Shown: positions 21,722 to 38,342 of the stretch, one piece after another
How positions within the stretch are numbered: the first letter of the stretch is position 1
How the letters are laid out: each line of letters opens with the position of its first letter
DNA from: Candidatus Poribacteria bacterium
GTDB lineage: Bacteria > Poribacteria > WGA-4E > WGA-3G
NCBI GenBank assembly: GCA_958295945.1
Contig: OY282386.1
Location: 3,404,204-3,468,203, forward strand
Length of the DNA stretch: 64,000 nt
Reading direction: 5' to 3'
Program-made: the position numbers and the translations under genes
Notes under the pieces: generated by a model
What the model saw: only the letters and a program-made list of their open reading frames with translations
The model's database searches: none
Told to the model about the DNA's origin: nothing

Positions 21722-21743
21722 GATTCATGTAATAGTCTTGTAT

Positions 21744-22000
21744 CTAACGATAGGCGTTTCGACGATGTTTGATTCGATAAATGTCAACACGCCGATGTTG
21801 ATCGTCTATTTGATATAGAATTCGGTATATCCCAACGCGTATTCGCCAATGGGAACCGCTTTGTCCCGTGAGTTTTACAACTCCACGTGGCCGTGGATTA
21901 TATCTCAATTGCTCGAACACAGCATCAATACGTCTGATAACGTCTTGTGGCAAACGCCGTAATTCTCGTTCCACACGCGGCGTTGCATGGACAGTTTGAC
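21744..22000 (-). pseudogene. RelE/ParE-like toxin, C-terminal part, cut by the TnpB element
   Basis: The reading VHATPRVERELRRLPQDVIRRI, then WRIRVGIYRILYQID and VDIYRIKHRRNAYR, is a RelE/ParE-family mRNA interferase from its first helix to its C-terminus, with the conserved R-x-G-x-Y-R-I-L-Y core. The upstream codons belong to the right end of the TnpB element, so its own start has been removed. The missing beginning (MSTPAIYPFHSV, from a TTG overlapping the antitoxin stop) is found on the far side of the element at 23403-23438. Confidence 0.75.
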
Positions 22001-23400
22001 ATACTCCCCAAGCTAAAGCATGGGGATTCTTTACCCGCTTATAGCGAACTTCCTTGGGTTTAAGCCAAGGCAACTGAGGTGCCAGTTGAATTTGACACCG
22101 AGGGGACTGCCAGGGTCCCGACTAACAGGGGTATTTGTCACCCCAGATACTTTTTTGTGAATGTTTATTGCGCCGACACCATCACGGTGATATTTGAAAT
22201 CACATTTGTTGCAGTGATAGTTTCGGTTGTTTGGTTTCTTTCTATGTCCGCACTTTGGACAAGTTTGTGAGGTATAGGCTTCTGATACAGAAACAACTTT
22301 TATACCAACAAGTTCGGCTTTATATTTGATTTTATCTGCTATTCGTGCGAAAGCCCATTGATGCAGTTTCTGATTAGACTTTTTAGAATACTTGATATTA
22401 TCTCTCATATGCATGAGGTCGCCAATCACAATCGTATCCGCCTTCGCTCTTTGGCAGTCGGATATAAAGCGTGAAGTGATTTTGTGTTCAGCATCTTTGA
22501 TTTGTGCATCAAGTTTATCTAAAGTTCTTTGTTTTGCTTTACGAAGTTTATACCATTTTCGTGATCGTTTCGGACAGGTGTCCATAGCATTCTGTATTTG
22601 TGCTTTGAGTTTGTTTCTGTATCGGACGATAGACCGCAAAAAATGACCATTGTAGATAGTAGTGCGCCTACCATCAAAACTAACAATCGGGTGAATTTCA
22701 CCCATATCAACAGAGACAGTTATACCTGTCTCTTGTTTCGGAGGAACATCAACTTTATAGACAAGTCCGAAGTGGTAGTGTCCACGATGGAAGGACATTT
22801 CAACATACTTCGGTTTTTCTTGCATATTCTCAAGGATTACAGGTGCTCTACCTTTACCGTTAGAAAGCATCAGTTGTCCATCTTTTAGGCGGATCGCACT
22901 TGACTTCCAACGCACTTTGAAATATCTTGGTGTCCGTTTAGGTGGTTTCGCATCAGGATTAGACTTTCTCACTTGAAAGAAACTTTTAAGACTTTCAAAA
23001 TAGGATTCAGCACAAGCCTGTATAGTTTGAGAATGCAATAGATACCCTTTGTTTTTGATGTATTTCTTAACGCCACTTTCAGAAAGCCAAAAACCTTTCT
23101 GTTTGAAAGTCTTTCTAACAAGTGATACTACTTTTGAATAGCAACGACCCGATGCACGAGCAAGATTGTCTAATTGTTGAGTTTTCTTATGTTTCATAGT
23201 TTTTGTGATATACATTGCTTTACCTTTACCTTTACATTGCTTTGCCACTTTCAAGGGGTGTGGTGGCACTCTCAAGCGAGAGGTGAAATCCACCACAGCA
23301 ATGTCTGAAGAATATACCACATTGGACACACAATGTCAAGTGTTTTTCTTGACACAACAAAGGCGGTGTGGACATCCCCGAGCTAAAGCAACGGGGTTTT
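22001..23400 (-). mobile_element. IS200/IS605-type TnpB-only element (IS1341 group)
   Basis: The unit contains tnpB without tnpA. Each end carries a hairpin in the same orientation: CCCCAAGCTAAAGCATGGGG at 22006-22025 and CCCCGAGCTAAAGCAACGGGG at 23376-23396. Such subterminal palindromes are typical of IS200/IS605 ends, which insert without target duplication. The exact borders are uncertain by several bases because TGTCAAA occurs at both junctions. The 3' end of tnpB and the hairpin beside it are where a guide (omega) RNA would be encoded. Without tnpA it needs a transposase supplied in trans. Confidence 0.8.
22031..23215 (-). CDS. tnpB: RNA-guided endonuclease TnpB with non-canonical RuvC-II
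   Basis: Starting at the ATG at 23215 (MYITKTMKHK) gives 394 residues, the usual TnpB size. RuvC-I Asp is D170 in VSVDMGEIHP. The RuvC-II block reads IVIGDLM, with Gly265 where the canonical Glu is expected, and a Glu (E312) precedes the zinc finger in VSEAYTSQTCPKCG. The zinc ligands are C319, C322, C335 and C338. RuvC-III Asp is D345 in YHRDGVGAINI. This pattern fits the TnpB groups described as having a relocated catalytic Glu. The predicted action is omega-RNA-guided DNA cleavage that keeps the element in place. Confidence 0.88.
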   Translation of the reverse strand: MYITKTMKHKKTQQLDNLARASGRCYSKVVSLVRKTFKQKGFWLSESGVKKYIKNKGYLLHSQTIQACAESYFESLKSFFQVRKSNPDAKPPKRTPRYFKVRWKSSAIRLKDGQLMLSNGKGRAPVILENMQEKPKYVEMSFHRGHYHFGLVYKVDVPPKQETGITVSVDMGEIHPIVSFDGRRTTIYNGHFLRSIVRYRNKLKAQIQNAMDTCPKRSRKWYKLRKAKQRTLDKLDAQIKDAEHKITSRFISDCQRAKADTIVIGDLMHMRDNIKYSKKSNQKLHQWAFARIADKIKYKAELVGIKVVSVSEAYTSQTCPKCGHRKKPNNRNYHCNKCDFKYHRDGVGAINIHKKVSGVTNTPVSRDPGSPLGVKFNWHLSCLGLNPRKFAISG

Positions 23401-23402
23401 GA

Positions 23403-23438
23403 CACCGAATGAAATGGATAAATCGCTGGTGTACTCAA
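23403..23438 (-). pseudogene. RelE/ParE-like toxin, N-terminal fragment
   Basis: A TTG at 23438 overlaps the antitoxin stop (TTGA) and opens MSTPAIYPFHSV, after which the frame runs into the left end of the TnpB element. It pairs with the C-terminal toxin fragment at 21744-22000. Confidence 0.6.
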
Positions 23439-23641
23439 AGTTTTCCTTCTTTAATCAAGTCGGCGCGAATATCTTGATAGTCGCGAAACTCTGTTTCGGT
23501 TTCGATCGCAGCGTCCATCTCTAAAGTATCTTCTAAGTCTTCAAGCCGCTGCATGAGCAGTTGGAATTCTTTGATTGTCAGGAGCGCAGCGGTTTTTTCG
23601 CCTTTGTCATCAACAAGATATTGTGGGTTGATTTTGAGCAT
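23435..23641 (-). CDS. Type II antitoxin (Phd/YefM- or RelB-like), orphaned
   Basis: A 68-residue protein beginning MLKINPQYLVDDKGEKTAALLTIKEFQLLMQ, a common opening of Phd/YefM-type and RelB-type antitoxins. The acidic C-terminal half should bind the toxin. AAGGATGG precedes the ATG. Its toxin partner, overlapping by 4 bp, has been split by the TnpB element, so the antitoxin is now without a functional cognate here. It follows the PIN gene on the higher-coordinate side after 30 bp, all on the minus strand. Confidence 0.75.
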   Translation of the reverse strand: MLKINPQYLVDDKGEKTAALLTIKEFQLLMQRLEDLEDTLEMDAAIETETEFRDYQDIRADLIKEGKL

Positions 23642-23671
23642 AAGTATCCATCCTTCAGTTATATTGATATA

Positions 23672-24082
23672 TTATCGTGAAAATTGAGCATAGAAATCCG
23701 CGGCTGTTACAATTTGGATGTTTCGATAGTTTCTCAGTGGTAAAAGGTGCCGACGATCTCCAGTCACAATGTGGGTAGCTGAACCGACAACGGCACATTC
23801 AATTATCTTGTTATCGTCTGGATCTGCATCAACAACCTTGAGTGTATTGTTAATCTGGATTATCCTCAGGAAACCACGGAAATCTTCAAACGTATTTGCC
23901 GTTTCGGTAGACGTAAAATTAAGTTTTGTTGTAAGTTTATCTTCCAATTCGCTCAATATTTCCATGCATGTTAATCCATCAACTTTTCCGTGGCGTGCTA
24001 AATCGAGGCAGTGCCCTGGGATACCTCCCCAACCGATGCTGGATAATAAAATATTTGTATCATAAACAACTATCGGGAACAT
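23672..24082 (-). CDS. PIN-domain toxin (putative ribonuclease)
   Basis: A 136-residue PIN-family protein: the first acidic residue lies in VVYDTNILLSSI, later acidic positions are in VDADPDDNKIIECAV, and ATHIVTGDRRHLLPL carries the last Asp. This pattern matches the PIN-type putative toxin components grouped as COG1569. It should be a metal-dependent ribonuclease. Its ATG lies inside the 3' end of the upstream 183-residue gene (13-bp overlap), with GAGG upstream, so the two are coupled. Confidence 0.82.
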   Translation of the reverse strand: MFPIVVYDTNILLSSIGWGGIPGHCLDLARHGKVDGLTCMEILSELEDKLTTKLNFTSTETANTFEDFRGFLRIIQINNTLKVVDADPDDNKIIECAVVGSATHIVTGDRRHLLPLRNYRNIQIVTAADFYAQFSR

Positions 24083-24621
24083 TCACGATCCTCATGAATG
24101 AGGTCATTAACAAACCTTTCACGATCAGTTTCAGTCATTTCCTCCCAATCTAAACCGCGCGAAGTGCATAACTTCCGAAATTGCGCTTCAGCATAATCCA
24201 TACGTGCTGCCCGGCCGGGGTCTTCAATTCCGAGATGTGCTCTCCGCAGTCGCGACTCAAGCTCCTGAACCCCTGGTGCGAAAAATACTTTGCCAGCGAA
24301 CCCTGGGTCCGTAACTATCTGTTTGATCTGGTTGACGAGTACCTCTAATTCTTGGGGTTGCTGGCACGTTAATATTTGACTATCGCTATCAAGAAAGAAG
24401 ATAACGTAGTCATCCTGCCTAAGGTAATTCCGAATAGTCTTTTTAAGTTGGCCATTCAATGATGTTTTATCTTTCCTATTGGACATCAAAAACCCTTTGC
24501 TATCAACTGCCTGGACAGACAGATCATTCAATTTCAAGTTTGTCGCTATATTATTTACCAAAGTTTTAAGTGCTTCAACATCATAATCGGATTCCACAGT
24601 CCATATTCTCACGTTTACCAT
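24070..24621 (-). CDS. Protein of unknown function coupled to PIN toxin
   Basis: I do not recognise the family with certainty. The 183-residue protein opens with a beta strand (VRIWTVESDYD), has an acidic strand end YVIFFLDSDSQI near residue 76, and finishes with a charged helical region. The strand-acid-loop layout recalls small TOPRIM- or DUF4276-type proteins of defence islands, which is a weak resemblance. GGAGGAATCGAC gives a strong RBS. The 13-bp overlap with the PIN gene puts it in the antitoxin position, but it has no obvious DNA-binding domain. Confidence 0.6.
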   Translation of the reverse strand: MVNVRIWTVESDYDVEALKTLVNNIATNLKLNDLSVQAVDSKGFLMSNRKDKTSLNGQLKKTIRNYLRQDDYVIFFLDSDSQILTCQQPQELEVLVNQIKQIVTDPGFAGKVFFAPGVQELESRLRRAHLGIEDPGRAARMDYAEAQFRKLCTSRGLDWEEMTETDRERFVNDLIHEDRECSR

Positions 24622-24754
24622 GTCGATTCCTCCAATAAGTCTTGTGGTGTGAAAATAGCAATATCAATACTGAAATCTATAATTGAACCGTACGTTCTTG
24701 TTGATATTATACATCTTCACGGTTGTGCTTGTCAATTGCTTTCAGAGTGGCGAA

Positions 24755-25933
24755 CTAAATTGGGTTGTCTCTGTCAATATCAAGGTCGGATACGTCTATT
24801 TCGCCAGAGATGAGCTTGGGGAGGAGTAGGTCGCGGGTTTGGCGGAGGTTGGCGTTTTTCAGTTTTAACGCTGTAATGTTTTCAAAATTGGGTTCAATCA
24901 TTTGGTCAAATTTTTTTAACAATTTTTGTGGAGGCAAAATGACTGGAATTCTATTCAAATTTTGTTGGTTAATCTTTGGCTGTGCGGCACCGGTAACATA
25001 ACCTAAAATGGCTACATTGGACATAAACAAATAAAGGAAATTTGTCGAAATTGGTGCCTCTCCTTGGACAACATGTGTATGATTATTTACCCAGAACTTT
25101 CCAGTTACTAACTGCAGCACAGGTTTTCCATCCTCAGTAACAACGCTACCATCTTCACCAATTAATAAATACCTTCCATCAAATAAATAATCGTTGATAT
25201 GATCCAATACTTTAGCAGCACCATAATATGGATATTCGCCCTGCATAGTTGATCTGACCTGTCCTGATAGTGGTTTACGCATACGATCAAAGTTTAGAGA
25301 GACCTCGCCAAATTTCTTAACCTCCCATCCCTGCGGTATCGGTCCCAACTCTGATTCTACCATCGGCACGTTTTCATGTCCGGGAAATCGGTAGTGAACA
25401 AACCATTCTCGGTAGAGAGTTTGTGCCATGTCTTCAAGGATTTTGATGCGGCGGGTGTTGTTTTCTATGAGGTCGTCGTAGGTGCTGAGGATGGCGGCGA
25501 TTTTATTTCTGGATTCTGGGTATGGAATTGGAAAATTCTTAATTGTGTCAGTTGTTAAATTCGAGAATGTTGATCCACCCGCTAAGTTAAGGAGCCCTTC
25601 AAGTTTCCATTCAAGACAGTAACGTATAAATTTGGTTTCTAGTAAAGTCTTACCGCGAATTGAACAAACTCCACGCCCTAATGAATAGATTTGATCCGCC
25701 CAATTCATTCTCCCTGTCGAACCACGAACACAAAAAATTAAGTCACCAATTTTGCACTCTCTCTTTGAGTCAGTTGTGTAAAGTGTGCAGTGTGGATGAG
25801 TTTCTCCAAATTCGGTTGGACCGTTTAGTAGCGATAAACCGATTCCATCATGATTGTAGGTTGTTCCTTTCGGAGAGAGTCCCATGGTAACATTAGCGAT
25901 CTTACACAAGGCAACTTCAAAATTATCAAACAT
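24755..25933 (-). CDS. hsdS: Type I restriction-modification specificity subunit S
   Basis: A 392-residue HsdS with two target-recognition domains separated and ended by the usual coiled helices. The central helix is KIAAILSTYDDLIENNTRRIKILEDMAQ, followed by LYREWFVHYRFPG. The C-terminal helix is LRQTRDLLLPKLISGEIDVSDL. It selects the bipartite DNA site for both methylation and restriction. The first recognition domain is short, about 130 residues before the central helix. The gene is intact. It lies 25 bp downstream of the DUF2806 gene. Confidence 0.9.
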   Translation of the reverse strand: MFDNFEVALCKIANVTMGLSPKGTTYNHDGIGLSLLNGPTEFGETHPHCTLYTTDSKRECKIGDLIFCVRGSTGRMNWADQIYSLGRGVCSIRGKTLLETKFIRYCLEWKLEGLLNLAGGSTFSNLTTDTIKNFPIPYPESRNKIAAILSTYDDLIENNTRRIKILEDMAQTLYREWFVHYRFPGHENVPMVESELGPIPQGWEVKKFGEVSLNFDRMRKPLSGQVRSTMQGEYPYYGAAKVLDHINDYLFDGRYLLIGEDGSVVTEDGKPVLQLVTGKFWVNNHTHVVQGEAPISTNFLYLFMSNVAILGYVTGAAQPKINQQNLNRIPVILPPQKLLKKFDQMIEPNFENITALKLKNANLRQTRDLLLPKLISGEIDVSDLDIDRDNPI

Positions 25934-25958
25934 ATTGAACTCTTTAAAATCACTTAGT

Positions 25959-27323
25959 CTAAGCTTCGGTCATTGTTAAATTTTGTCCTGTCAAGAACGT
26001 CTTAAGAGCGTTTGTGTATTCTGGCATAGGATTTTGATCAACTATGTGGAATAATTCACGACCTACCTGAGAAAGCTCTATCCCTCTCCATTTAAGCCCT
26101 TGAATTTTATCTCGTTCTCCCGAAGGTAATAATATCCATCTCTGTTCCTGATGCAACAATTCTAAAATAGGGAACCAACTCTTATTATCTACCAACAAAT
26201 TATACTCAAAGGAAGAGTTATAAGCTGAAATAATCAAACCATACTCGTTTAGGATATTAAGTGCTTGGAAACCTAAGCCATACTCACTGAGCTCGTCTAG
26301 CTCCGGATTGCCTCCTAAAGAAGGAACTCTAATGTCAACAATATTTTGTCCATATCCATCCTTGCGGGAGGAAACTCTCATATCAGGGACCTTTTTGGTG
26401 GCTGGAAATTCCATGACAACACATGCTGAACATAGTCTTTTGAACAATATTGCAGCATTTTCACTTAACTCACCAAGTGTTTTTACAGCTTTTATTGAAT
26501 ACGAACCCGGTTTCTCAATTTCACCTGCTAATACACGACCAAAACGCCGTTGCATCTCTTCAGTACTTACCTGCCGAGCTTCGTTTTCAAAGTTGTTAAG
26601 CCAATCATCGTTGATTGCCGTTTCCTTGTTATTATCTGTTTCTTGATTTGTTGCCTCTGCAGATACTTCTTTATTAGGTTCACCAGTGTTTTGATTTGTT
26701 GTCTCTGCAGCTATCGATTTCTTAAGTTCATCTGCAGCAATAGCGGAGATTTTATCAAGATTGATTTGCTCTCTAATTATTTTTCCCGCGAATTTGTGCC
26801 CTGCCCTCCGGGCATACTCAGGATCAACCTTTATGTCTTGAATAATCTGAGAAGTAATCTCCTCTCCAATTTTAATGCGTGCTTTTGATTCTGCCCGAGC
26901 TTCATCAGCTTTTCCTTCAAAATACGCATTATACCACTTACTCGGAGCAGAACATAATTTGCCAAAAGCCTTAGACGCGTTCCGCCCTAACCAAGTAGAA
27001 ATATCCAATCCGGATATAAAATTGGTGACAACCTCAAGCGCGTTTCCCACTGTATCTTCGGGAACAACATCACGAGCCATGCTTGTTTCATCTTCGGTTG
27101 TTTCGGGTAAATCAGGTTTCGTTTCATCAGACATACTTATATCTTTCTTTTGATCTGGTGCACTTGGAGTCGGATTCTGCGTCGATTTGAGATTAACCTC
27201 AAATTCTACTTCGTGGGTTTCGTCCCAATAGTCGGCAAGACTATGTGTATCCCAAAATTCGCCAATTTCCTCTGGGGTTGCATCGGGAGGTGGCATCGGA
27301 TCTCGCTTTTCATCTTCGTGCAT
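25959..27323 (-). CDS. DUF2806-domain protein
   Basis: The core PEYARRAGHKFAGKIIREQINLDKI identifies the DUF2806 family of unknown function, repeatedly seen near mobile and restriction loci. N-terminal to it is an acidic, low-complexity region with VVTNFISGLDIS. C-terminal is an alpha-rich region including EMQRRFGRVLAGEIEKPGSYS. I prefer the ATG at 27323 (MHEDEKRDP), after GAAAGG. A TTG six codons earlier is also open. It lies between an XRE regulator and hsdS on the same strand, probably in the same operon. Function not known. Confidence 0.72.
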   Translation of the reverse strand: MHEDEKRDPMPPPDATPEEIGEFWDTHSLADYWDETHEVEFEVNLKSTQNPTPSAPDQKKDISMSDETKPDLPETTEDETSMARDVVPEDTVGNALEVVTNFISGLDISTWLGRNASKAFGKLCSAPSKWYNAYFEGKADEARAESKARIKIGEEITSQIIQDIKVDPEYARRAGHKFAGKIIREQINLDKISAIAADELKKSIAAETTNQNTGEPNKEVSAEATNQETDNNKETAINDDWLNNFENEARQVSTEEMQRRFGRVLAGEIEKPGSYSIKAVKTLGELSENAAILFKRLCSACVVMEFPATKKVPDMRVSSRKDGYGQNIVDIRVPSLGGNPELDELSEYGLGFQALNILNEYGLIISAYNSSFEYNLLVDNKSWFPILELLHQEQRWILLPSGERDKIQGLKWRGIELSQVGRELFHIVDQNPMPEYTNALKTFLTGQNLTMTEA

Positions 27324-27352
27324 ATATCCTTTCTCAAGCAAATCGGGAATCG

Positions 27353-27679
27353 CTAAGTCGTAACGACTCGCAGGTGTCCGCCTTTTTCGTTTGGAGGGGT
27401 GATACGAATTTCTACGTTGCAGTTCAACTGATTTAGGATTGTAAACAGTTTATCAATTTTAAAATCGAAATCACCGTTCTGTATACGTTCCACATCCGAT
27501 GGATTGAGTCCAAAACGATCCTCTGCTTTTGCTGGCGTGAGTTTTAGTTCCTCAAGTAGGCGATAGATTTTAATTACGAGATTCACCCTTAACTGTTCAC
27601 GCTCAGCTTCTTCTTTAGAAAAACCGATGTCTAAAAACACATTGCCTGAACTTTCTTCAATTTTTATTTCTTCACTCAT
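27353..27679 (-). CDS. XRE-family HTH protein, paralogue of the HigA-like antitoxin
   Basis: A 108-residue protein aligned end to end with the antitoxin at 8549-8878: MSEEIKIEESSGNVFLDIGFS, a helix-turn-helix near residues 40-75, and FTILNQLNCNVEIRITPPNE. No toxin gene accompanies it. A broken copy of its last codons lies at 28452-28525. It may regulate the restriction genes, a common role for XRE proteins in such loci, but that is an inference. Confidence 0.78.
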   Translation of the reverse strand: MSEEIKIEESSGNVFLDIGFSKEEAEREQLRVNLVIKIYRLLEELKLTPAKAEDRFGLNPSDVERIQNGDFDFKIDKLFTILNQLNCNVEIRITPPNEKGGHLRVVTT

Positions 27680-27713
27680 TTTTTTGCCCCATTTCTCAAA
27701 CCCTACCTCAACA

Positions 27714-27911
27714 TTATACCGGACTCTCTAAAATCTTCGCAACATTCTCTGCGATACGTTCTTCAAGTTGGTGTGCCTCTGCGTTTAGGATTTCTAACGC
27801 CTCATTGAGTTCACCGAACCGTTGTGTCCAGTCAAAATCCTCAGTTTTCTGTGTTGCTACACCGACATAACGTCCCGGGTTTAAGCTCCATTCTTGTGCT
27901 TCAATTTCTTC
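27714..27911 (-). pseudogene. Truncated duplicate of the hsdM 3' end
   Basis: The minus strand encodes [20 protein letters not shown] and continues to [20 protein letters not shown] followed by a stop. It parallels the last 64 or so codons of the intact hsdM with only scattered changes. Homology stops abruptly near 27911. A short frame entering from upstream (MPYQESPYFDTPSHTKTLWR, ATG at 27994) runs across the breakpoint in a different frame and ends at 27881, which supports a recombination joint. Confidence 0.85.
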
Positions 27912-28029
27912 TTAAATTTATCTATATGCATGTCCCTCCATAAAGTTTTTGTATGGGATGGAGTATCAAAGTACGGACTTTCTTGATAGGGCATTTTGTC
28001 TTCTTTATTCTCCCAAAATGTATTTATTA

Positions 28030-28371
28030 TCACATTAAGTGATCGTTGAGAGGTGGTTTAAAATGTTGAACTAAAAGTTTCTCAATGTTAGAACGTGATT
28101 CGACTGGGTAAGGCACATAAACAGAAATATGGTTCATTCCATGATGGAGTGCTTCATTCCATTTATGATGACCTGGACCCAATCTATCTCTAAGACCTTC
28201 TGTTTCACCAATATATAAAAATTGGTGATTGTTTCCACATTGTGCATTAGGGAAGCCTTTCGAAAATATATAGACACCTGGAGCATTGTATCCTGGTCCC
28301 TCTAAATCATAAACAACAAATTGGTATGTCTTGTTACCGTCGGTAACATTCATCGGTCCTATCCGTGCCAT
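28030..28371 (-). CDS. GIY-YIG nuclease-like protein
   Basis: A 113-residue protein with GVYIFSKG near residue 32 and FLYIGETEGLRDRL near residue 52. These correspond to the GIY and YIG strands and the following Arg of the GIY-YIG fold. HHKWNEALHHGMNHISVYV and NIEKLLVQHFKPPLN fill the rest of the domain. The latter contains the Glu and the terminal P-x-x-N seen in this family. A strong GGGAGG RBS precedes the ATG. It could be a stand-alone nuclease of the island; catalytic activity is not proven. Confidence 0.72.
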   Translation of the reverse strand: MARIGPMNVTDGNKTYQFVVYDLEGPGYNAPGVYIFSKGFPNAQCGNNHQFLYIGETEGLRDRLGPGHHKWNEALHHGMNHISVYVPYPVESRSNIEKLLVQHFKPPLNDHLM

Positions 28372-28451
28372 TTTAACCTCCCTTTACTCCATTATAAAAA
28401 ATTAGTTATTTCAACTCGACGATAGTAAAACGTTTGGTTCAAGGATAAAAA

Positions 28452-28525
28452 GTTAAGTCGTAACGACTCGCAGGTGTCCGCCTTTTTCGTTGGAAGGCTA
28501 AATATGAATTTCAACTTCAGCAAGG
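28452..28525 (-). pseudogene. Broken duplicate of the XRE gene 3' end
   Basis: The minus strand reads AEVEIHI-stop-PSNEKGGHLRVVTT-stop, matching the C-terminus of the protein at 27353-27679 (NVEIRITPPNEKGGHLRVVTT) with an internal TAG. On the DNA the match is nearly exact over GTCGTAACGACTCGCAGGTG and onward, and then decays. Confidence 0.8.
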
Positions 28526-28539
28526 TGTCGGTGATTATC

Positions 28540-28839
28540 TTACATAGGGATATGTTCCACTTCAATCTCAAGCCATGAATCCCATTGATGTTCAGAGACA
28601 TAAGTTTTGCCAATTTTTTTTATCTTTTCTATGTACATATCTACTTTTTCTAAATCTGAGTCTTTTGGATAGGAAACCATTAGGGTAAGTGTTTTTCCAT
28701 CATCTTTTGGCATATATATACTCTTGAATTTTCCATCATAAGGCACTTCCAGAATTGGCGAAAATGAATTTAATGCAAATGCTAACCATTCTAAACGAGA
28801 TGGAGTGTAATGTTCTAAACCTGGGGCTTTTTCTGCCAT
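28540..28839 (-). CDS. Small protein of unknown function
   Basis: A 99-residue protein with a clear AAAGGAGATC RBS. It has no signal peptide or membrane helix. It contains a central KSIYMPKDDGKTLTLMVSY segment and a C-terminal half with charged helices. I do not recognise the family. It lies 19 bp downstream of the coiled-coil protein gene, so the two are probably cotranscribed. Confidence 0.55.
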   Translation of the reverse strand: MAEKAPGLEHYTPSRLEWLAFALNSFSPILEVPYDGKFKSIYMPKDDGKTLTLMVSYPKDSDLEKVDMYIEKIKKIGKTYVSEHQWDSWLEIEVEHIPM

Positions 28840-28858
28840 GCTGATCTCCTTTGGAGGG

Positions 28859-29266
28859 TTATAGGTACTTGCTAATTAGAGGAACAATAACAGCAGCGAT
28901 TGCTACGGTTGTGCCTATAAACCATCTCAATCCTGATATTCTATCCTTGATGTCATCTCTAACTATTTGAATATCATTCTTTAAGTCTGTTTTAACTTCA
29001 TTTATATGATTTTCGACACCTTTTATATCATTCTTTAAGTCTGTTTTAACTTCATTTATGTTATTCTCTAAGTCTGTTTTGACTTCTCTTATGTTATTCT
29101 CTAAGTCTGTTTTGACTTGGAGAATGTCGCCCTTAAGATCTGTTTTGACTTCATTAATCCGATTTTCAAGGAGAGATTCATTTTTTACGATCTCTATACT
29201 AGTCACTTCTTTGTCAGTCGTATGGACTTGTAGGAATTCAAGTATGTCGTCTTTGGAATCTGCCAT
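28859..29266 (-). CDS. Coiled-coil repeat protein with C-terminal membrane anchor
   Basis: An 11-residue unit NEVKTDLKNDI/REVKTDLENNI is repeated about six times between residues 35 and 105, mirrored by 33-bp repeats in the DNA. A hydrophobic segment FIGTTVAIAAVIVPLIS follows near the C-terminus, so a parallel coiled coil anchored in the inner membrane is expected. The GTG at 29269 immediately precedes the better ATG at 29266, with AGGAG upstream. It resembles short Bdr/DUF1640-like membrane coiled coils. The role is unknown. The repeat could vary in copy number by slippage. Confidence 0.65.
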   Translation of the reverse strand: MADSKDDILEFLQVHTTDKEVTSIEIVKNESLLENRINEVKTDLKGDILQVKTDLENNIREVKTDLENNINEVKTDLKNDIKGVENHINEVKTDLKNDIQIVRDDIKDRISGLRWFIGTTVAIAAVIVPLISKYL

Positions 29267-29448
29267 CACCCACTCCTTATTTGGCAGTTGCTTCTTGTAT
29301 TAAACAAAGTCTATCATATTGAGGCAAAAAAGGCAAGAAAAGTAGAAGCATGGGAATCGGACTTCCCTCCTACTGCGATATGTCGGAAATAGAAATTCGT
29401 TCCTACCTTTGACAAAAACAGATATTAATCGAAAACTAAATAGTCTTG

Positions 29449-31014
29449 TTAAGTCCTATTCTCTAAAATCTCTGCAACATTCTCTGCGATGCGTTCTTCA
29501 AGTTGGTGTGCTTCAGCGTTTAGGATTTCTAATTCCTCATTGAGTTCACTGAACCGTTGCGTAAAGTCAAAATCCTCAGCTTCCTGTGTTGCTACACCGA
29601 CATAACGTCCAGGGTTCAAACTCCATCCCTGTGCTTCAATTTCTTCCACTGTAGCAACCTTACAAAGACCTGGGACATCAACGTATTTTCCATCGGGGAA
29701 TTTGGTATTTTGGAGTTCCTCGCTATTATGTCTATTTTCAGGTGTTTCGTTTCGGTAAAGGCGCGCTATGTTTGCTAAGAATTCGAGTTGCATGGAAGTG
29801 AATTCTCGATGCGCCCGGCTGACTTGTTGATAAAGATGGCGCGCATCAATGAAGAGGACTTTATCGTGTCTGTCGGTGTTCTGTTTGGATTTGTCGAAAA
29901 ACCAGAGGGTACACGGCAGCGTTACAGTGTAGAAGAAATTTGATGCAATGCTAATCATCACATCTACAACACGGGATTCAATAATCTGCTTACGAATTTC
30001 TAATTCCGAAGCGCGCGCGTCTGCAGCGGAGTTTGCCATCACAAAACCCGCTTTACCGGTATCGTTCAGTGAGCTCAGAAACAACTGTATCCAAATATAA
30101 TTAGCATTACCTACGCGCGGCATGCCGAATGGGAATCGTGGATCGTCCTTTATACGATCCATGTCTACTCTATCAACATTAAAGGGAGGATTCGCCATCA
30201 CAAAATCAAATTTACCTAAAGATTTATGCGGGTCTTCGTAATAACTGTTGGCTTGCCTGATGTCCCCTTCATGTCCATGCACTGCAAGGTTCATCTTACA
30301 GAGTCTGATAGTCTCATTTACCCGTTCAACGCCATGAATGCTAATATGTCCTTGATTACCGTTTTGTGTGTGATTCCGAATGAACTCTTCGCTTTGAACG
30401 AACATGCCACCGGACCCACACGCAGGGTCAAGGATACGTCCGTGGAATGGTTGGAGTATTTCAACGATGAGTTTAACAAGTGAAGTCGGGGTGAAGAACT
30501 CACCGCCTTTTTGTCCCTCACTCATAGCAAAATTACCGAGAAAGTATTCGTAGACCTTACCGAAGGTATCGCCTTCAATGTCCATCGAAATTTGTTCCAT
30601 AATGCGTAGCAGTTCTATGAGGGTACTCTTTTCAAGGCGATTGTAGTTTTTGGGCAAAACCCCTTCTACCTGTTTGTTTTCAGCTTCAATAGCTTTCATT
30701 GCGTTAGAGATAGCTTGACCGATGTTATCGCTTTCTGGTAAATTCAGAAGATGTTGGAATCTTGATTCTTCTGGTAAATAAAAGGCACCACGTGCATGGA
30801 ATTGTGTTCTTTCATCAATTTGTCTCCGCGTACCGGATGGTGTTCCAGTGCTGAGTTCTTGTTGTACTTGTTTGAATTTATAGTCCGCGTATTTCAGAAA
30901 GATAAGTCCTAAGACCGGTGTGGAGTATTCAGAACCCTTGAGACTTGAATTGGCTCGCAATTCATCTGCGGCACTCCACAGTTTGTTTTCGATTTGAGTC
31001 AAATTAGTATTCAT
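29449..31014 (-). CDS. hsdM: Type I restriction-modification methyltransferase subunit M
   Basis: An N6-adenine methyltransferase subunit. The N-terminal HsdM helical domain ([20 protein letters not shown]) is followed by the SAM site [15 protein letters not shown] and the catalytic NPPF in [12 protein letters not shown] use the ATG at 31014 because the family begins at this point; an upstream in-frame ATG at 31038 adds eight poorly matching residues. With hsdS it would form the modification enzyme that protects host DNA. Its last 64 codons have a truncated copy at 27714-27911. Confidence 0.92.
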
Positions 31015-31094
31015 ATTCTTTTGAATTCCATTGCACATTAGCGCGTTAAAAGTTCTGATAAGTTACAAGTGTATACACTTCAAATTCAACAACA

Positions 31095-34000
31095 TTAGAA
31101 GAAGGAACGACCCAGTGAATTGCCCGATCCGAACGCGTTATACGGAACACCGGCAGGTAAGGTGTGCATTCCCCATGTATCGGTTGTTGCATCATAACCG
31201 ACACCCATGGAGACTGCTGGTTCACCAATCAAGTTAACCTGAAATGTAAAATCTTGTCGCACAGTGTCAAACGGAGGATCCCGTTTAATACCGACCCGAC
31301 TCCAAGAGACACGCAAGTTCCAATCGTGCAAGTTCCGGTTAAGACTGATGCGCTGTGAGTAAAATTGCCCTTCAATCGGATAATAGATGAGACTGAAATC
31401 ACACTCAAGATCCTTACTAAAACGGTATCTGCCATTAGCCGTAATTGAGCGTGATGCACGTATAGATGTGTGTCGTTTACTGAAAGAATTACCGACACTT
31501 ACATACCACTGTTGCCGTGTGTATCTGATGTTCGTCCGAATACCCACCATCTTGAATTGTTTGCCATCTTTTGGATGCGGATTTGGGTCATGTGTCATAC
31601 GCACAGTCATGTGTAGGTTGCGACTGGGTAGCGGAACGATTGTGAAATCGCTATCAATCGGTTCGAATTTACGTCTATAAAGCGATTCAAATTCAGTGAA
31701 ATCAGCGGTGAACCTTGTATCAAAATAGAAGATACGATGAGCAGATTGGCTGCGGCGCGTTTTTATTTCAATGTTGGTATTGAAGTTGTATGTTAGTCTT
31801 TTGCGTTCATAAAAATAGGTGCTTGGACCAAATGGATAAAGACTGTTATCAGCATCAATAGGTGGTTGATAATCAAACGTCAGTGAGGATTGAATTTCAT
31901 GCCGTAATTTTCTCACTGTGGGTATTAATCTTGTGTTATAGATGCGGAATAAGGTGTTTGTTGCTTGTGCTCTAACATTGTAAACACCTCTTATAATGTT
32001 CCTATTTTTGTCTTGATCTTTTGCATGCCAAATAGCGTTTGTGTTCAGACTTGCATTTAGCTTTATCTCTCGCAATGGCGTTATGAATACATTTGCTTGT
32101 TTACGTAGATCAAAACCTAAATCCAAAGTCTGAAGGAATACATTATTTTCCTCACCATGTTTACCACGATATGTCTGCCTATAAAAGTTCCCGAATTCAA
32201 TATCCATATCAAAACTGGTATCTTCAAGAGTAGGGAAAGCAAAGAGGGAGAGAATCGGCAGATCGGTTTTCATTTTCTCAGAGACGTACACCATTCCATC
32301 GTTAATTGATTCAAAAACAGGCAGCCTACTAAACCGCATCCGTGAAAAGTTGACAGATAATTGGGGCAATTTTTGGAGAGCGGTATTTCCTTCTCCAGAG
32401 AAATCGTGGATATGACGTATTTCCAGTCTGCTGGTGAAGTCACCGATGGTTTCCCTTGAATATCTTAGGTTTCCGTCTTCATCAACGTCTTTATCACTGG
32501 CAGTTGAGAATGCAGTGCCATAGGTGAAAATCCCGAATGAATTCAGCGTAGATTCGTTTATGTACCCCAAATCCTCTTTATAGTGGAGTGCGCGCCATGC
32601 TGTTCGTCCAACGAAACTCAAGGGACGTCGTCCATCCTTGCGACTGTCCCAAGGAGTATAAAAGGATTGCCTGTGTCCCCATCGCATATTCCACCGTCTA
32701 CCGATTCGGGATGCGTTCTGTCTGCTAAATGAATATTCATCTGCACCGTAGAGATAGATGTCACCATAATAACTTCGTTTCTTGTCAACCTTGATGACTC
32801 GAAATGATTTTTTTGTATTTATGACGCGACTGTATTCTCCAGCATATAGACTCTGTGCTTCGGATGCGACTTGCCGCGGGTCTTCCCATCTTCCACGAAA
32901 ACCGTGTTTGCGATGGACCTCAAAGGTTTCCTCCTCTTCACCGTCTTCACTCTCACCAACTTTTTTCATTGATTGTTGTGTAGATGTATCATCTTCAATT
33001 TGTTCAGTTTGTTCTTCTGTCGGCACTGATGGTGAGGTAGTATCTTCTGCAGAGGATGTGTCATTATCATCAGAAGTAGTGGATTTTTCCTCTTCACTGG
33101 GTGTTGAAAGCACTTCCGCTTCAAAGGTTTTCCATTCTGCTTTAAACTGCTCGGCAAGTTCCTCAAATTCAGGTGTTTCATCTTTTTTGATTAATTGGAA
33201 GATATAAAGTCCTTCAGGTGAAAAAACGGGACTTTGTTCAGTAATATCACCAGGATTTTTCAAACGTCGGACAGAATACTGCCATCCCGAATTCATCTCA
33301 TTTAGAGGTAGTCCATTCCCTTCATTTATTTCTGACAATACTGCATCAGGGAATTCATCTGCAAGTTCCTCAAAGGTTTCTCCACCAAGTGCACGTTCAT
33401 GTATTTTATCAGTTACCGTTCGGACTGTCTGTTGAGTCTCAGTGCTTGCTTCTATAGCAATATCTATGCGGCTTAATTTAACCTCTCTTTCACCATAGAT
33501 ATCAAGCACGCGTTCTACTTTGAGGATATGGAATGCGGATTCTGTTCGTAAGACCTTGCTAACTTCACCCTCCTTAAGTGCAAATGCTGTTTCTTCTAAT
33601 ATTGGATCAAGTAATGGATTTTCATCTTTGTCTTTTTCGCCTCGGACGATGAAACCCATATCACCCCCATCATATCGTGTGTCTGTGTGGTCAGATTCTG
33701 ACTGTGCAATCTGCGAAAAGTCAGCAGCTTCTTCTGTCAGTCGTTTGAATATCGCTTCCGCTTCTTCTTGTGCGCGGTCAGCATCTTCGTCAGTTATTTT
33801 GTATTCCAGAAAAAGTTGTTTGAGCCAATAACGGTCATAATCCCCTTCAAGACGATCATATATCTCCTTTGCCTTATCTTCCAATTTTGTGCGTTGTGCT
33901 GGTGTTGCATCTGGTGGAATGGGTATATGTATTTCCTGAAACTGCGTATCTCTGAACCGATATTTTCCTTCAAAACCGTAACCTTGTCCTCTACGTGCAC

Positions 34001-34916
34001 TTCTATCATAAAGCAGCGCGCCATCATACCGTCTCTTACGTGCCACAGGTAGAATGATACTTATATTTGGACCTTGGTAACTATCTGTTCCTACCCTAAC
34101 AATAATCTTCGCTACTTTATCTTTGCGTAAGTCTCTGCGGATAGCGGGAAAATAGAAAAGAGGGATGCCACCGATTCGCAAGACGATGTTCTTTGCTATC
34201 ATCTCTTGGTTCATTTTAATGATTACTTCAGATACACTGAAATGGTAGTGCGGATATTTGAGGGAACATGTTGTGAGTGAGCCACCGCGGATATAAGATT
34301 TCTTATTCTCTATTTTGAAGATTTCACTACCACCGAAGTACCATGGATCACTAAATGTGTAACCATTTCTGGCAATCCCTTTTTTTGTTTCAAGATTGAA
34401 AACAAGTTCATCGGAATAGGTTTCTTCGTTGTCCACTTTCAGATATACATTGCCAGCAGCACGCACAAGATTGTCGTTGAAGTCTGCCCATACATGATCT
34501 GCCCGTAAAATCACATCTTCAAATTTGATGAGCGCATTGCCGTGTATCTGCACAAAGTTATCTTGCAAAATTACCTCATCCCCATCACCGATAACAGTGC
34601 CATCTTCTGGAGTCATCTGCTCAATATCTAATCCTTCTTTAGCAACATTAATCGGTTGTGATTCGTTTTCGGTGGTTTCTGGAGTTGGGGTTTGTTCGCC
34701 TTGTGGTTGTTGCCCCTGAACTGAGGGTATATGCAAAAAAAGACAGGTTAATGCCATTGCTGCAAAGAGTAAGACCTGTATATACCCATTGAGACGATGA
34801 GAATTCTCAATTGATGTGGTTCTTGGATAACACAGATGATACAACTTGAATTTGGAAGAATAATTTTTGGATATAGGTGGGTAATCTTCGTTTTTCTGCA
34901 CAGGTTTATTACTCAA
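31095..34916 (-). CDS. lptD: LptD/OstA-family outer-membrane protein with inserted parvulin-like modules
   Basis: The long N-terminus precedes a hydrophobic signal-type segment at about residues 44-68. An OstA/LptA-like beta-taco follows at about 110-190 (NFVQIHGNALIKFEDVILRA), then the LptD linker IGGIPLFYFPAIRRD at 249-262 and the first barrel strands to about 325. Two parvulin-like segments interrupt the barrel: about 377-475 (ADFSQIAQSESDHTD, GGDMGFIVRGE, ETAFALKEGEVSKVLRTES, FHILKVERV) and a more divergent one at about 480-580. A Glu/Ser/Thr-rich linker (600-665) leads to the remaining barrel, which ends in ...GRSFF. LptD inserts lipopolysaccharide-type lipids into the outer leaflet. The gene follows a SurA-like gene by 6 bp. 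Confidence 0.8.
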   Translation of the reverse strand: MSNKPVQKNEDYPPISKNYSSKFKLYHLCYPRTTSIENSHRLNGYIQVLLFAAMALTCLFLHIPSVQGQQPQGEQTPTPETTENESQPINVAKEGLDIEQMTPEDGTVIGDGDEVILQDNFVQIHGNALIKFEDVILRADHVWADFNDNLVRAAGNVYLKVDNEETYSDELVFNLETKKGIARNGYTFSDPWYFGGSEIFKIENKKSYIRGGSLTTCSLKYPHYHFSVSEVIIKMNQEMIAKNIVLRIGGIPLFYFPAIRRDLRKDKVAKIIVRVGTDSYQGPNISIILPVARKRRYDGALLYDRSARRGQGYGFEGKYRFRDTQFQEIHIPIPPDATPAQRTKLEDKAKEIYDRLEGDYDRYWLKQLFLEYKITDEDADRAQEEAEAIFKRLTEEAADFSQIAQSESDHTDTRYDGGDMGFIVRGEKDKDENPLLDPILEETAFALKEGEVSKVLRTESAFHILKVERVLDIYGEREVKLSRIDIAIEASTETQQTVRTVTDKIHERALGGETFEELADEFPDAVLSEINEGNGLPLNEMNSGWQYSVRRLKNPGDITEQSPVFSPEGLYIFQLIKKDETPEFEELAEQFKAEWKTFEAEVLSTPSEEEKSTTSDDNDTSSAEDTTSPSVPTEEQTEQIEDDTSTQQSMKKVGESEDGEEEETFEVHRKHGFRGRWEDPRQVASEAQSLYAGEYSRVINTKKSFRVIKVDKKRSYYGDIYLYGADEYSFSRQNASRIGRRWNMRWGHRQSFYTPWDSRKDGRRPLSFVGRTAWRALHYKEDLGYINESTLNSFGIFTYGTAFSTASDKDVDEDGNLRYSRETIGDFTSRLEIRHIHDFSGEGNTALQKLPQLSVNFSRMRFSRLPVFESINDGMVYVSEKMKTDLPILSLFAFPTLEDTSFDMDIEFGNFYRQTYRGKHGEENNVFLQTLDLGFDLRKQANVFITPLREIKLNASLNTNAIWHAKDQDKNRNIIRGVYNVRAQATNTLFRIYNTRLIPTVRKLRHEIQSSLTFDYQPPIDADNSLYPFGPSTYFYERKRLTYNFNTNIEIKTRRSQSAHRIFYFDTRFTADFTEFESLYRRKFEPIDSDFTIVPLPSRNLHMTVRMTHDPNPHPKDGKQFKMVGIRTNIRYTRQQWYVSVGNSFSKRHTSIRASRSITANGRYRFSKDLECDFSLIYYPIEGQFYSQRISLNRNLHDWNLRVSWSRVGIKRDPPFDTVRQDFTFQVNLIGEPAVSMGVGYDATTDTWGMHTLPAGVPYNAFGSGNSLGRSFF

Positions 34917-34922
34917 ACAATA

Positions 34923-36254
34923 TTAGTTTTCTTTTGCTTCAGGAGTTGAAATTACATCCTGTTTAATTTTGATAAATGCGTTTTCCATCAGTGTATCGGT
35001 ATATACTATCCATTCTTTCTCAAAGAGTTGTTGACGTAGAATCGCGATAATTTGCTGCTTTTCTTGTTGCGTCAATTCAGGTGTGACGCGTTCATCAACT
35101 TTGTAGATGTATAGTCCTATGTCGGTTTCAATCGGTTTACTATACTTTCCGACTTCAAGAGGTTCAACAACCTCACGTATTTTTGGATTTAACGCTGTTA
35201 GGATGTGCGTGCCGAGGTCGCCACCTTTCTTTCGACTTTCCGTATCATCGGAATGTTCTTTAGCAAGGGCGATATAATCTTCCCCCGCTTCCAATTTTTT
35301 GAATATCTCGTCAGCCTTTTTACTTGCAGCTTTTTTGACTTCATCGCTAATTTCATACTGAACGGTGAAATGTCTCAATGTTATTTTTTCCTCGGAGCGC
35401 GTTTCAACCATGAAAACATGGATGCCATCATCCGCTTTGATTGGTCCGCTGATTTCCCCCGCTTTGAGTTTGGCAAGGACAGTCAGGAATATTTCTGGAT
35501 AGGAAAGTATTTCAGCAGGTGTAGTTTCAATTAATGCCCCCGCTTTAGAACTCGGTTTCTGTTTTGCGGTGATACGTTGTGCAACAGATTGAAATTGCGA
35601 TTTATCCGACTTTATCTCTACAAGTGCTTGATTGACAACATCAGCTGCTGCATTTTTTGCTTTATCACTCGGTTTGATAGCGATGTAGATATGCCGCAAA
35701 CTTACACTATCTGCTTTAGTTGGAAGTTGATCCCTATTTTCTTCAAAAAATTTTTGAACGTCACTTTCACGAACTTGTAAACGTGACAGGATTCTCCCTA
35801 CAACTAATTTCTCAGTCATAAGGTTTCTTTGGAGTTGCTCACGGAATGCTTCAAAATTTAGTCCATCACGGTTTAATATTTTTTTGAACTCTTCATCGGA
35901 TGGTATCCGGTATTGCGTTTTAAACTTTTGTATCTGTTCCTCAATTTCAGCATCAGTGATCTGAATTTTCAGTGTTAATGCAGCCTCTAACAACAACTTT
36001 TGTCGTATGAGTCTATCAAGTAGTTCACCTCGTTCTTTTTCTGCTGTATTTAGTGCTTCACGTTCACTGTATCCTTCAATCTGTTGAAGTTCAAAGGCAC
36101 GTTGATTAACAAGTAGATCAAGACGACGTTTGGTTATGACATCATCGTTGACATAAGCGATAATTCTATCAAATATCCCTGCTGAACTTGGTGTTACGAT
36201 ACAACATATAGCGATCACAATTAACAGTACAGGAATGAATGTATTGGGTTTCAT
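34923..36254 (-). CDS. SurA-like periplasmic peptidyl-prolyl isomerase/chaperone
   Basis: A 443-residue protein with a signal peptide (about 1-25, ending PSSAG). A SurA_N domain opens with IIAYVNDDVITKRRLDLLV. Two parvulin-type domains follow: a degenerate one at about 185-295 and a better one with DYIALAKEHSDDTES-KKGGDLG near 330-350. This is the domain order of SurA, the chaperone that escorts barrels such as LptD to the BAM machine. It lies 6 bp upstream of the lptD-like gene, consistent with dedicated service to that protein. Confidence 0.87.
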   Translation of the reverse strand: MKPNTFIPVLLIVIAICCIVTPSSAGIFDRIIAYVNDDVITKRRLDLLVNQRAFELQQIEGYSEREALNTAEKERGELLDRLIRQKLLLEAALTLKIQITDAEIEEQIQKFKTQYRIPSDEEFKKILNRDGLNFEAFREQLQRNLMTEKLVVGRILSRLQVRESDVQKFFEENRDQLPTKADSVSLRHIYIAIKPSDKAKNAAADVVNQALVEIKSDKSQFQSVAQRITAKQKPSSKAGALIETTPAEILSYPEIFLTVLAKLKAGEISGPIKADDGIHVFMVETRSEEKITLRHFTVQYEISDEVKKAASKKADEIFKKLEAGEDYIALAKEHSDDTESRKKGGDLGTHILTALNPKIREVVEPLEVGKYSKPIETDIGLYIYKVDERVTPELTQQEKQQIIAILRQQLFEKEWIVYTDTLMENAFIKIKQDVISTPEAKEN

Positions 36255-36341: not shown

Positions 36342-37337
36342 CTATTTCTCAGGAGTGGTTTCTTCTGAAGGTGAAGTTTCTTCTGAAGGTGTTTCAGCTC
36401 CTTCTTCCTCAGGTTTCTTGTCTTCTGGTATGCGGTCAATGAAGGTTTTGACTTCAGCACGTTCTCGGAGTCGCGTAATCCAATCTTGCATCAGAGCCTC
36501 GCGCTTTTCACGTTCAGACCTTCTGATAACATCTTTACGGACATCCTCTTCATCAAAAGGTCGCTGAAATTCATCTCTTGCATCTTTCTTCACAAAAATC
36601 ATGAAATATTTCTCACCTTGAACTTCCACCTCAACCACTGAAGGATGCAGGACATCTATTTCAGCGTTGAAAGCAGCGTCCATAAACGGTTCAGTCCCGG
36701 TTGGATACGAGTTTCTGCCAATGAAGTCGGTGTCGCCTGGTGAAGCAGGATTTGCTCCCGGTCCGACCAATTCGCCTCTATCAGACAGTTCTTGTGCAGC
36801 AACAGCAATATCTTTCCCCGCCTTAAGTTCAGCAAAGACTTCATCGGCGCGTTCTTTGTTCATCAATGTGATGCACATCAGTTTGACCTGTTCAGGACGC
36901 ACATAATCTTCTTTATTTGCATCGTAATAGGTTTGATAGTCCGCTTCACCTAAGATCAGCTTACTTTCTACCTCTTGTTCTGTAATCCTTTCAATCATCA
37001 GATCCTGAAGATAATCTTGCACCTTCTTGAGAATTTCCTGATCCTCATTCAGATTCTTGTCTTTTGCAAGACATAGAATCATTCGGCTTTCCGCCATAAG
37101 AGTCATGTATTCTTCAAGACCTGCTTTGTCTTTGTATTGACGTTGTTTGTACTCTGGTAGTTCGCTGATTTCTTGCATCATCTCTTCAAGCGTGATCTTG
37201 TGTTTTCCATCCCATTCAAACTCAGCGATGACAGTGCCATCTGCACCGATTGCCTTGTCGCCACAACTGTAGACGAAGGGAAGCGTCGCAAGAATTGCAA
37301 AAAATAGTATAAAGCTAATATTTCTATATTTGGACAT
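36342..37337 (-). CDS. PpiC/SurA-like foldase, probable lipoprotein
   Basis: A 331-residue exported protein. The hydrophobic N-terminus ends at FVYSCGD, a plausible lipobox with Cys at about residue 25. A helical SurA_N-like region follows (ISELPEYKQRQYKDKAGLEEYM), then a parvulin-like domain from about residue 150 (VKLMCITLMNKERADEVFAELKAGKDI, GDTDFIGRN, MDAAFNAEIDVLHPSVVEV). Catalytic residues of active parvulins are not clearly kept. The tail repeats PSEET. It is paralogous to the next gene and lies in the same minus-strand run as the lptD-like gene. Confidence 0.75.
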   Translation of the reverse strand: MSKYRNISFILFFAILATLPFVYSCGDKAIGADGTVIAEFEWDGKHKITLEEMMQEISELPEYKQRQYKDKAGLEEYMTLMAESRMILCLAKDKNLNEDQEILKKVQDYLQDLMIERITEQEVESKLILGEADYQTYYDANKEDYVRPEQVKLMCITLMNKERADEVFAELKAGKDIAVAAQELSDRGELVGPGANPASPGDTDFIGRNSYPTGTEPFMDAAFNAEIDVLHPSVVEVEVQGEKYFMIFVKKDARDEFQRPFDEEDVRKDVIRRSEREKREALMQDWITRLRERAEVKTFIDRIPEDKKPEEEGAETPSEETSPSEETTPEK

Positions 37338-37370
37338 TATTCTTCCTCCTTTACATTAAATTTAGTATAG

Positions 37371-38342
37371 TTACTTATCAGGTGTCTCTGATTCTTCTTC
37401 GGGTGTTTCAGGTTCAGGGGTAGGAATGTTCTCAGGATACAGTTTTAGTTTTCCTTGTTGTGAGATTTCTTCAACCCATTCAATGATACGCGCCCGCTTT
37501 GCTGCACGGTCAACTTTACGTTTTACATCAGACTGCACCTCTTCCAGTTCCTTTTGCCGTTCCGATTTGTGTTCCTCTTTACGGAAAATGAGATAATATG
37601 TCTCATCATCTACATCGGTTTCAAATACTGTATCTGTCATTTCTCCGATTTCCATCTCAAAGACAGCCTCAATGAATTCAGACCAGTTCGGAGAAGCAGA
37701 TTGGCTGAATAAACCCGTGTTGCCCGGATTTTCTTCGCTTTTACCAGGGCCATTTGCAATCTTATCTTGTTCCGTGAGTTTCACAGCCATCTCAACTATA
37801 TCTGCCCCAGCTAGAATCTCGTCTAATGTTGCATTCGCCAAGTCTTCATCATCAAGGGGAATACATATTGCACGCACCTTTGCGGCTTCAACATAGTTAG
37901 CCTTGTTTTCCTCATAGTATGCTTTCAAGTCTTCGTCGGTGTATGAAACCTTTGCATCAACTTCCACTTCCGTTAGTTTTTCAACCATGAGTTGATGTGT
38001 GTAGTCCTCCAACTTATCAAGATGATCTTGGAGTTTATCGAAACCGTGTTCAGTTGCTTGAAGTAATTTGAGTTTTTTGTCAATGTAATCTTCTAAAAAT
38101 TCTGCTTTTCCTTCCTTCTTGGAATAATTTCGCTGACGGTAGGATGGTAATTCTGCAATTGCTGCGTCAAGTTCTTCAAGAGAAATCTGTATGAGTTCTC
38201 CGTTCCACTTCATCTCTGCCAATATTATTTGACTTTTGTCCACTTCTTCTTCGGAAACCCCGTGGTTGTCTGAACGGACAAGAGACCAAGTGAGAAGGCA
38301 GGTTGCTACAACTGCAGTAACAACAAAAAATATTTTTTTCAC
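37371..38342 (-). CDS. PpiC/SurA-like foldase, exported paralogue
   Basis: A 323-residue protein with an N-terminal signal segment (MKKIFFVVTAVVATCLLTWS). A helical region with IAELPSYRQRNYSKKEGKAEFLEDYIDKKL is nearly the same motif as in the neighbouring 331-residue protein, and a divergent parvulin-like C-terminal half follows (ENPGNTGLFSQSASPNWSEFIEAVFEMEIGEM). A Pro/Glu tail closes it. It is probably a chaperone-type foldase rather than an active isomerase. Gaps of 33 bp and 57 bp to its neighbours suggest one operon from mfd to the lptD-like gene. Confidence 0.72.
   Translation of the reverse strand: MKKIFFVVTAVVATCLLTWSLVRSDNHGVSEEEVDKSQIILAEMKWNGELIQISLEELDAAIAELPSYRQRNYSKKEGKAEFLEDYIDKKLKLLQATEHGFDKLQDHLDKLEDYTHQLMVEKLTEVEVDAKVSYTDEDLKAYYEENKANYVEAAKVRAICIPLDDEDLANATLDEILAGADIVEMAVKLTEQDKIANGPGKSEENPGNTGLFSQSASPNWSEFIEAVFEMEIGEMTDTVFETDVDDETYYLIFRKEEHKSERQKELEEVQSDVKRKVDRAAKRARIIEWVEEISQQGKLKLYPENIPTPEPETPEEESETPDK

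Follow-up and report, generated by a model that had tools for sequence, protein, structure and literature searches.

LptD, the outer-membrane protein that brings lipopolysaccharide to the cell surface, is a drug target, and in bacteria other than the Poribacteria, a sponge-associated phylum, parvulin domains of the kind discussed below are carried by a separate helper, SurA. LptD is one of the two families of outer-membrane proteins that almost every diderm bacterium has conserved, and it is an unusually slow client of the β-barrel assembly machinery (BAM) (PMC13067283); in E. coli, disulphides between its β-taco and its barrel activate the translocon (PMC10567701). In E. coli, the core of SurA suffices to bind BAM and to complement a surA deletion, and a parvulin domain regulates SurA (PMC11366764 and references there; references in PMC7195389); the role of the SurA parvulin domains for outer-membrane clients is still called elusive (PMC11366764). 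LptM (YifL) and LptE of enterobacteria, which help LptD assembly or activation (PMC10567701), are separate lipoproteins without a parvulin fold. The parvulin-fold proteins PrsA, PpiD and Pin1 (2jzv, 8zht, 4tns) are stand-alone or membrane-anchored enzymes or chaperones, none of which is part of an outer-membrane barrel. Here we describe a poribacterial LptD that is predicted to carry three parvulins between two strands of its barrel, one of them split around the other two. Its gene lies at 31095..34916, on the minus strand, of the 64,000-nucleotide stretch of a Candidatus Poribacteria genome that we analysed (the window; contig OY282386.1, positions 3,404,204 to 3,468,203). The initial annotation of this DNA knew of no described LptD with such an architecture; likewise, we found in open-access papers no description of one, of any LptD-parvulin fusion or of poribacterial SurA. 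What is new is thus a form of LptD with a parvulin insert, not a new kind of system.

The gene is a single, uninterrupted open frame of 1273 codons whose product ends in Phe-Phe (...GRSFF). Its start is uncertain: the TTG at 34916 is the most upstream start, and no in-frame ATG lies ahead of the signal peptide, which by sequence reading occupies, with an N-terminal extension, residues 1-68 (34713..34916, on the minus strand like all parts of the protein given below). Relatives whose genomes were assembled independently have the same full-length frame, at about 49-85% identity, which excludes the sequencing error or fusion of two genes that the initial annotation had named as one way in which its reading could fail. 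A structure model built from 39 aligned homologues (mean predicted local distance difference test score, pLDDT, 76.8; predicted template modelling score 0.59) shows an OstA jellyroll and 26 barrel strands, and 26 strands were also obtained in a second model. In the window protein the OstA β-jellyroll (residues ~105-250, 34167..34604), which contains TTC217SLKYPHY, has its strands at residues 108-248 and is followed by a linker to the barrel (251-262). Barrel strands 1-4 cover residues ~268-332 (33921..34115), strand 4 running on into the insert, and strands 5-26 cover residues 714-1273 (31095..32777; structure model, DSSP). The 41 best matches of the window model among solved structures are LptD, bar a few peptidyl-prolyl isomerase (PPIase) entries among them, with 4q35 at the top (E = 1.5e-20) and SurA next; the best PDB matches of the second model are likewise LptD, with E down to 3.6e-17. 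CT351, an outer-membrane β-barrel family, matches residues 145-331 (E = 4.8e-5). Thus the locus shares with known LptD (4q35, 5iv9, 8h1r; Pfam LptD / LptD_2) the jellyroll, the linker IPLFYFPAIRRD, the 26 strands and the TTC...PHY motif, but differs in that LptD_2 is matched only at the cut-off (22.3 bits for the protein and 24.8 bits in a genome scan, cut-off 22.5), in that a profile search gave no match to PF04453, and in the loss of the LHCW cysteine across the window's class. All together, the models indicate that 31095-34916 encodes an LptD, and the OstA domain, linker, first strands, resuming barrel and terminal Phe of the initial annotation are borne out. The protein is the sole LptD found in its genome (one contig of 5.34 Mb), genome searches revealing no second one. 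LptF/G, LpxC, LptE, a BamA-type Omp85 and Skp are all encoded there, so the setting is an ordinary lipopolysaccharide pathway; LptE, LptF/G and LpxC are also shared with the systems of 4q35, 5iv9 and 8h1r.

What known LptD lacks is the insert, about 370 residues that the model places between barrel strand 4 (residues 310-332) and strand 5 (704-728). The strand 4-5 turn is predicted to be periplasmic from strand parity, given that strand 1, like that of known LptD, enters from the periplasm. The Rotamase profile PF00639 recognizes three stretches of the protein (E = 7.2e-26), best at residues 375-468, and the insert matches SurA and PPIase structures in both models. Profile search and structure prediction, two checks that the initial annotation had proposed for its LptD with parvulin-fold modules inside the barrel, thus agree with it, as do the Foldseek matches. 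It had, however, counted two modules. These are indeed parvulins: P1 (residues 362-471, 33504..33833), which keeps a GGDMGF loop but has lost the equivalent of Pin1 His59, and P2 (474-580, 33177..33497), which has lost the GGDLG loop and both histidines. A third, P0 (318-361 + 582-713), had been overlooked, and with it the split and nested layout.

The evidence for P0 came from outgroups within the class, in which the stretch before the resuming barrel is clearly a parvulin, yet one without strand 1 and helix 1; the missing piece is found ahead of P1, where barrel strand 4 ends (318-361). With both halves joined, the PF00639 score rose by 18-27 bits in five proteins (54.9 to 81.6, 42.9 to 66.4, 38.4 to 57.3, 50.6 to 68.2 and 17.9 to 41.1 bits, the last being the window protein without its linker), and the joined domain spans the profile from about 2-6 to 97. 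When the first halves were shuffled the scores were 56.8, 52.2 and 19.0 bits, and 18.6 bits when one was reversed; randomised first halves therefore added 1-2 bits in two proteins and 9 in a third, against 27, 23 and 24 for the real ones. The gain, absent from the controls to that extent, argues for three parvulins of which the outer one is split, and this replaces the description as two parvulins plus a spacer. P0 begins with strand 1 and helix 1 (residues 318-361, 33834..33965; joining test and DSSP, E310-332 and H339-357) and continues, after P1 and P2, with helix 2 (FEELAEQF; 582-604, 33105..33173; profile match and DSSP) and strands 2-4 (665-713, 32778..32924). P1 and P2 are thus nested between its first and second helix; in the model, barrel strand 4 is prolonged as the first strand of P0, and the last P0 strand leads on into barrel strand 5. 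The acidic linker (605-664, 32925..33104) is not the plain spacer before the barrel that it had been taken for, since it interrupts P0. It is a later insertion, as judged from its spread in length (50-163 residues in the window's order against 12-13 in the two class outgroups measured), low model confidence (pLDDT < 50) and relaxed selection.

Ratios of nonsynonymous to synonymous substitution rates (dN/dS), medians over ten pairs that are rough in absolute value because synonymous sites approach saturation in several of them, were 0.043 for OstA, 0.028 for strands 1-4, 0.089 for P1, 0.113 for P2, 0.045 for the second part of P0, 0.043 for the barrel and 0.35 for the linker, which points to purifying selection on P0, P1 and P2. 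A parvulin insertion merely tolerated in a periplasmic turn and kept without function would fit the fast-evolving linker and the decayed catalytic residues (see below), but is very improbable given these low ratios, the retention of the insert in every readable LptD of two classes and the gain of one more parvulin in a further periplasmic turn. For catalysis we considered the parvulin PPIase residues Pin1 His59, Cys113/Asp and His157. The His59 equivalent, found in 17 of 19 poribacterial SurA P1 domains, is present in 0/24 LptD P1 and 1/24 LptD P2. The GGD(M/L)G loop and the second histidine are kept in 15/24 P1, and both are gone in most of the P2 domains compared; a manual alignment places Glu at the first-histidine position of the window P0. 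It follows that the modules are conserved as folds rather than as enzymes, and that a non-enzymatic role is most likely. The suggestion of the initial annotation that the barrel has its own foldase therefore does not hold in the enzymatic sense: a true intramolecular foldase, a prolyl isomerase fused to its own substrate, could appeal to the parvulin fold and to the P1 domains that keep loop and second histidine, but it is decidedly improbable where the first histidine is missing from every P1 and from 23/24 P2, where most P2 also lack loop and second histidine, and where P0 carries a Glu.

The insert is conserved across the phylum. We searched 289 genomes, 85 from Poribacteria and 204 from outside the phylum. 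LptD was seen in 82 of the 85 (three drafts show none), and all 81 LptDs with a readable junction, which belong to two classes, carry the insert; the remaining one (G010) is interrupted by contig ends. No insert-free LptD was seen among the 85 genomes, so that the occurrence in related genomes, for which the initial annotation had proposed a search, is confirmed. The architecture was not seen among the 16 LptD-type frames listed from the 204 other genomes, a limited sample, further LptDs having fallen below those listed. Thirteen of these frames (661-761 aa) are too short to hold the insert; reading or scanning of the three large ones (1090-1384 aa) and of three of ordinary size showed no Rotamase, the extra length of the large ones being N-terminal OstA-type sequence.

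In two genomes of the sister class (G040, G041) an additional parvulin lies between strands 10 and 11 (G041:C308:1159-1503 = L067; G040:C141:787-1134 = L066), a turn that is also periplasmic. This fourth domain matches as a circular permutant, its Rotamase_3 score rising from 43.1 to 71.9 bits once the trailing strand 1-helix 1 was placed first. The LptD of G041 matched PF00639 in four stretches (E = 1.5e-66), and Pin1, PrsA and SurA were among the Foldseek matches. At the same turn the window LptD has a helix (residues 866-881, 32274-32321), which may represent either a remnant or the condition of the ancestor.

The insert resembles SurA (1m5y), with which it shares tandem parvulins of the same type: LptD residues ~345-590 align across both domains of poribacterial SurA at 23-29% identity, with both parvulins in register. 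It differs from SurA by the third, split parvulin around the pair, the loss of the first catalytic histidine, the fusion to a client and the lack of a SurA core; indeed, a profile search for SurA_N found no match in the LptD chain, the match sitting in the upstream gene. In a tree of parvulin domains, LptD P2 forms one clade (ultrafast bootstrap 97) and LptD P1 mixes weakly with poribacterial SurA P1. A SurA origin is thus suggested, weakly by the domain tree, and it is plausible on these sequence comparisons that in the phylum ancestor a hairpin bearing a parvulin acquired a SurA-derived tandem, either by insertion or by duplication within the hairpin.

In the family f5 (G038, G044, G045, G046, G048), the gene directly upstream of lptD encodes a short SurA, of about 225 residues where the frame is unambiguous (L059:2365-3042; L111, reverse complement 2325-3032; L110; L114; L146, from 2181). 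In 5/5 readable genomes this SurA retains its N-terminal core and C-terminal segment, while precisely P1 and P2 are missing, and a Rotamase scan of the f5 genomes found no tandem-parvulin SurA elsewhere, only PpiD-like and PpiC-like proteins and LptD. The pattern fits work shared between a SurA core and client-borne parvulins, but is suggestive only, since LptD P1 is partly degenerate in some f5 members. It could also be asked whether LptD is a membrane-fixed hub whose outer-membrane-anchored parvulins serve other clients, completing the SurA core, notably the clipped one, for general outer-membrane protein assembly. The exact loss of P1 and P2 and the missing full-length SurA of f5 would suit such a hub. 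However, the insert coexists with a full SurA in other families, the sister class included, and hence predates the clipping; moreover, LptD is a low-copy protein in E. coli, and the P1 degeneracy speaks against the hub as well, which we consider improbable.

We favour, at a probability of roughly 0.45, a role in which a non-catalytic, client-borne module of SurA type helps LptD to assemble on BAM and afterwards persists as a periplasmic collar. We infer this from the homology of the domains, their place in the operon, the lost catalytic function and the clipping of SurA in one family. In the model the periplasmic hairpin between strands 4 and 5 is extended into the two central strands of P0, with P1 and P2, both of SurA type, nested in it; the insert would derive from SurA-type parvulin sequence in the phylum ancestor and work without catalysis. 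During export and on BAM, the barrel precursor, which folds slowly, would be shielded or held by P0-P2 and docked by them to the SurA core and BAM, so that they would do from within the client part of what the SurA parvulin domains do from outside; after assembly they would remain beneath the barrel as the collar. Only tentatively do we propose that LptD is a client with a built-in chaperone, whose own SurA-type parvulin module, with one domain grown from a barrel hairpin, lets SurA shrink to its core in one lineage. If true, LptD here would be an outer-membrane barrel that chaperones itself, and the sister class would have gained one more parvulin at another periplasmic turn. A client that bears three parvulins covalently, with the catalytic first histidine lost, would in any case be a natural experiment on the isomerase, docking and shielding roles, which could be separated by cutting parvulins out of one protein, and a barrel hairpin extended into a soluble fold would be a route for outer-membrane proteins to gain periplasmic domains.

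Several points weigh against the assembly role: the P0 strands are continuous with the barrel, which suits a part that is permanent and structural no less than an aid needed only during folding; the genome does not lack assembly helpers, since it encodes SurA, Skp and BamA; the degenerate P1 of some f5 members weakens a simple transfer of function; and the tree support for a SurA origin is weak. The main rival is a permanent brace of the mature translocon: the extended strand 4-5 hairpin, together with its parvulins, would make up a periplasmic collar by which the OstA jellyroll or the LptA bridge is held to the barrel close to the lateral gate. In its favour, P0 passes without a break into barrel strands 4 and 5, and selection on the second part of P0 is as tight as on the barrel. 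In the window's class the brace may also stand in for a lost disulphide between N-terminal domain and barrel, which is characteristic of E. coli LptD, is not needed for the fold and was not treated as defining. Throughout this class, and in this class only, the conserved LHCW motif has lost its C-terminal cysteine and reads LHDW/LHNW/LRDW/LNVW (residue 1198 of the window protein, 31323-31325). The OstA cysteine (residue 217, 34266-34268) is also lost in the f5 members and in two f3 genomes (G025, G028), so that the usual disulphide cannot form. The sister class, however, has the parvulins together with both cysteines, which rules out that the insert arose as a replacement for the disulphide, and a plain brace does not need P1 and P2, which are nested and probably mobile. 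We therefore regard the brace as somewhat unlikely and keep to the assembly role.

The initial annotation had also considered a plug-like role. By strand count the insert emerges under the barrel, with the lateral gate beginning three strands away, as might suit a luminal plug or a substitute for LptE. Nevertheless, LptE is encoded in 79/85 genomes of the phylum, the source genome included (G000:C1:4942158-4942667, beside pnp), where the Pfam LptE profile by itself misses it; on this presence across the phylum we reject the insert as an LptE substitute, and a plug is scarcely credible. Three genomes of the genus g2 carry tandem duplicate LptE genes (G050:C173:11725-12769, G054:C703:3448-4490, G021:C1:78072-79126).

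The genes around lptD are, in order on one strand, mfd, two PpiC-like parvulin genes, surA and lptD. The surA gene (34923..36254, minus strand), which encodes a SurA_N core and two parvulins, ends 6 bp upstream of lptD. The two PpiC/PrsA-like parvulin genes (36342..37337, matching Rotamase_2, and 37371..38342) lie on the same strand, likely in one operon. In G040 and family f5 this PpiC-like tandem (window 36342-38342) appears as a single fused frame of 670-740 aa (L107:792-2801; L059:145-2364). Directly downstream of lptD, at 18542-31038, lies a Type I restriction-modification locus (HsdR, HsdS-like, HsdM) interspersed with additional genes.

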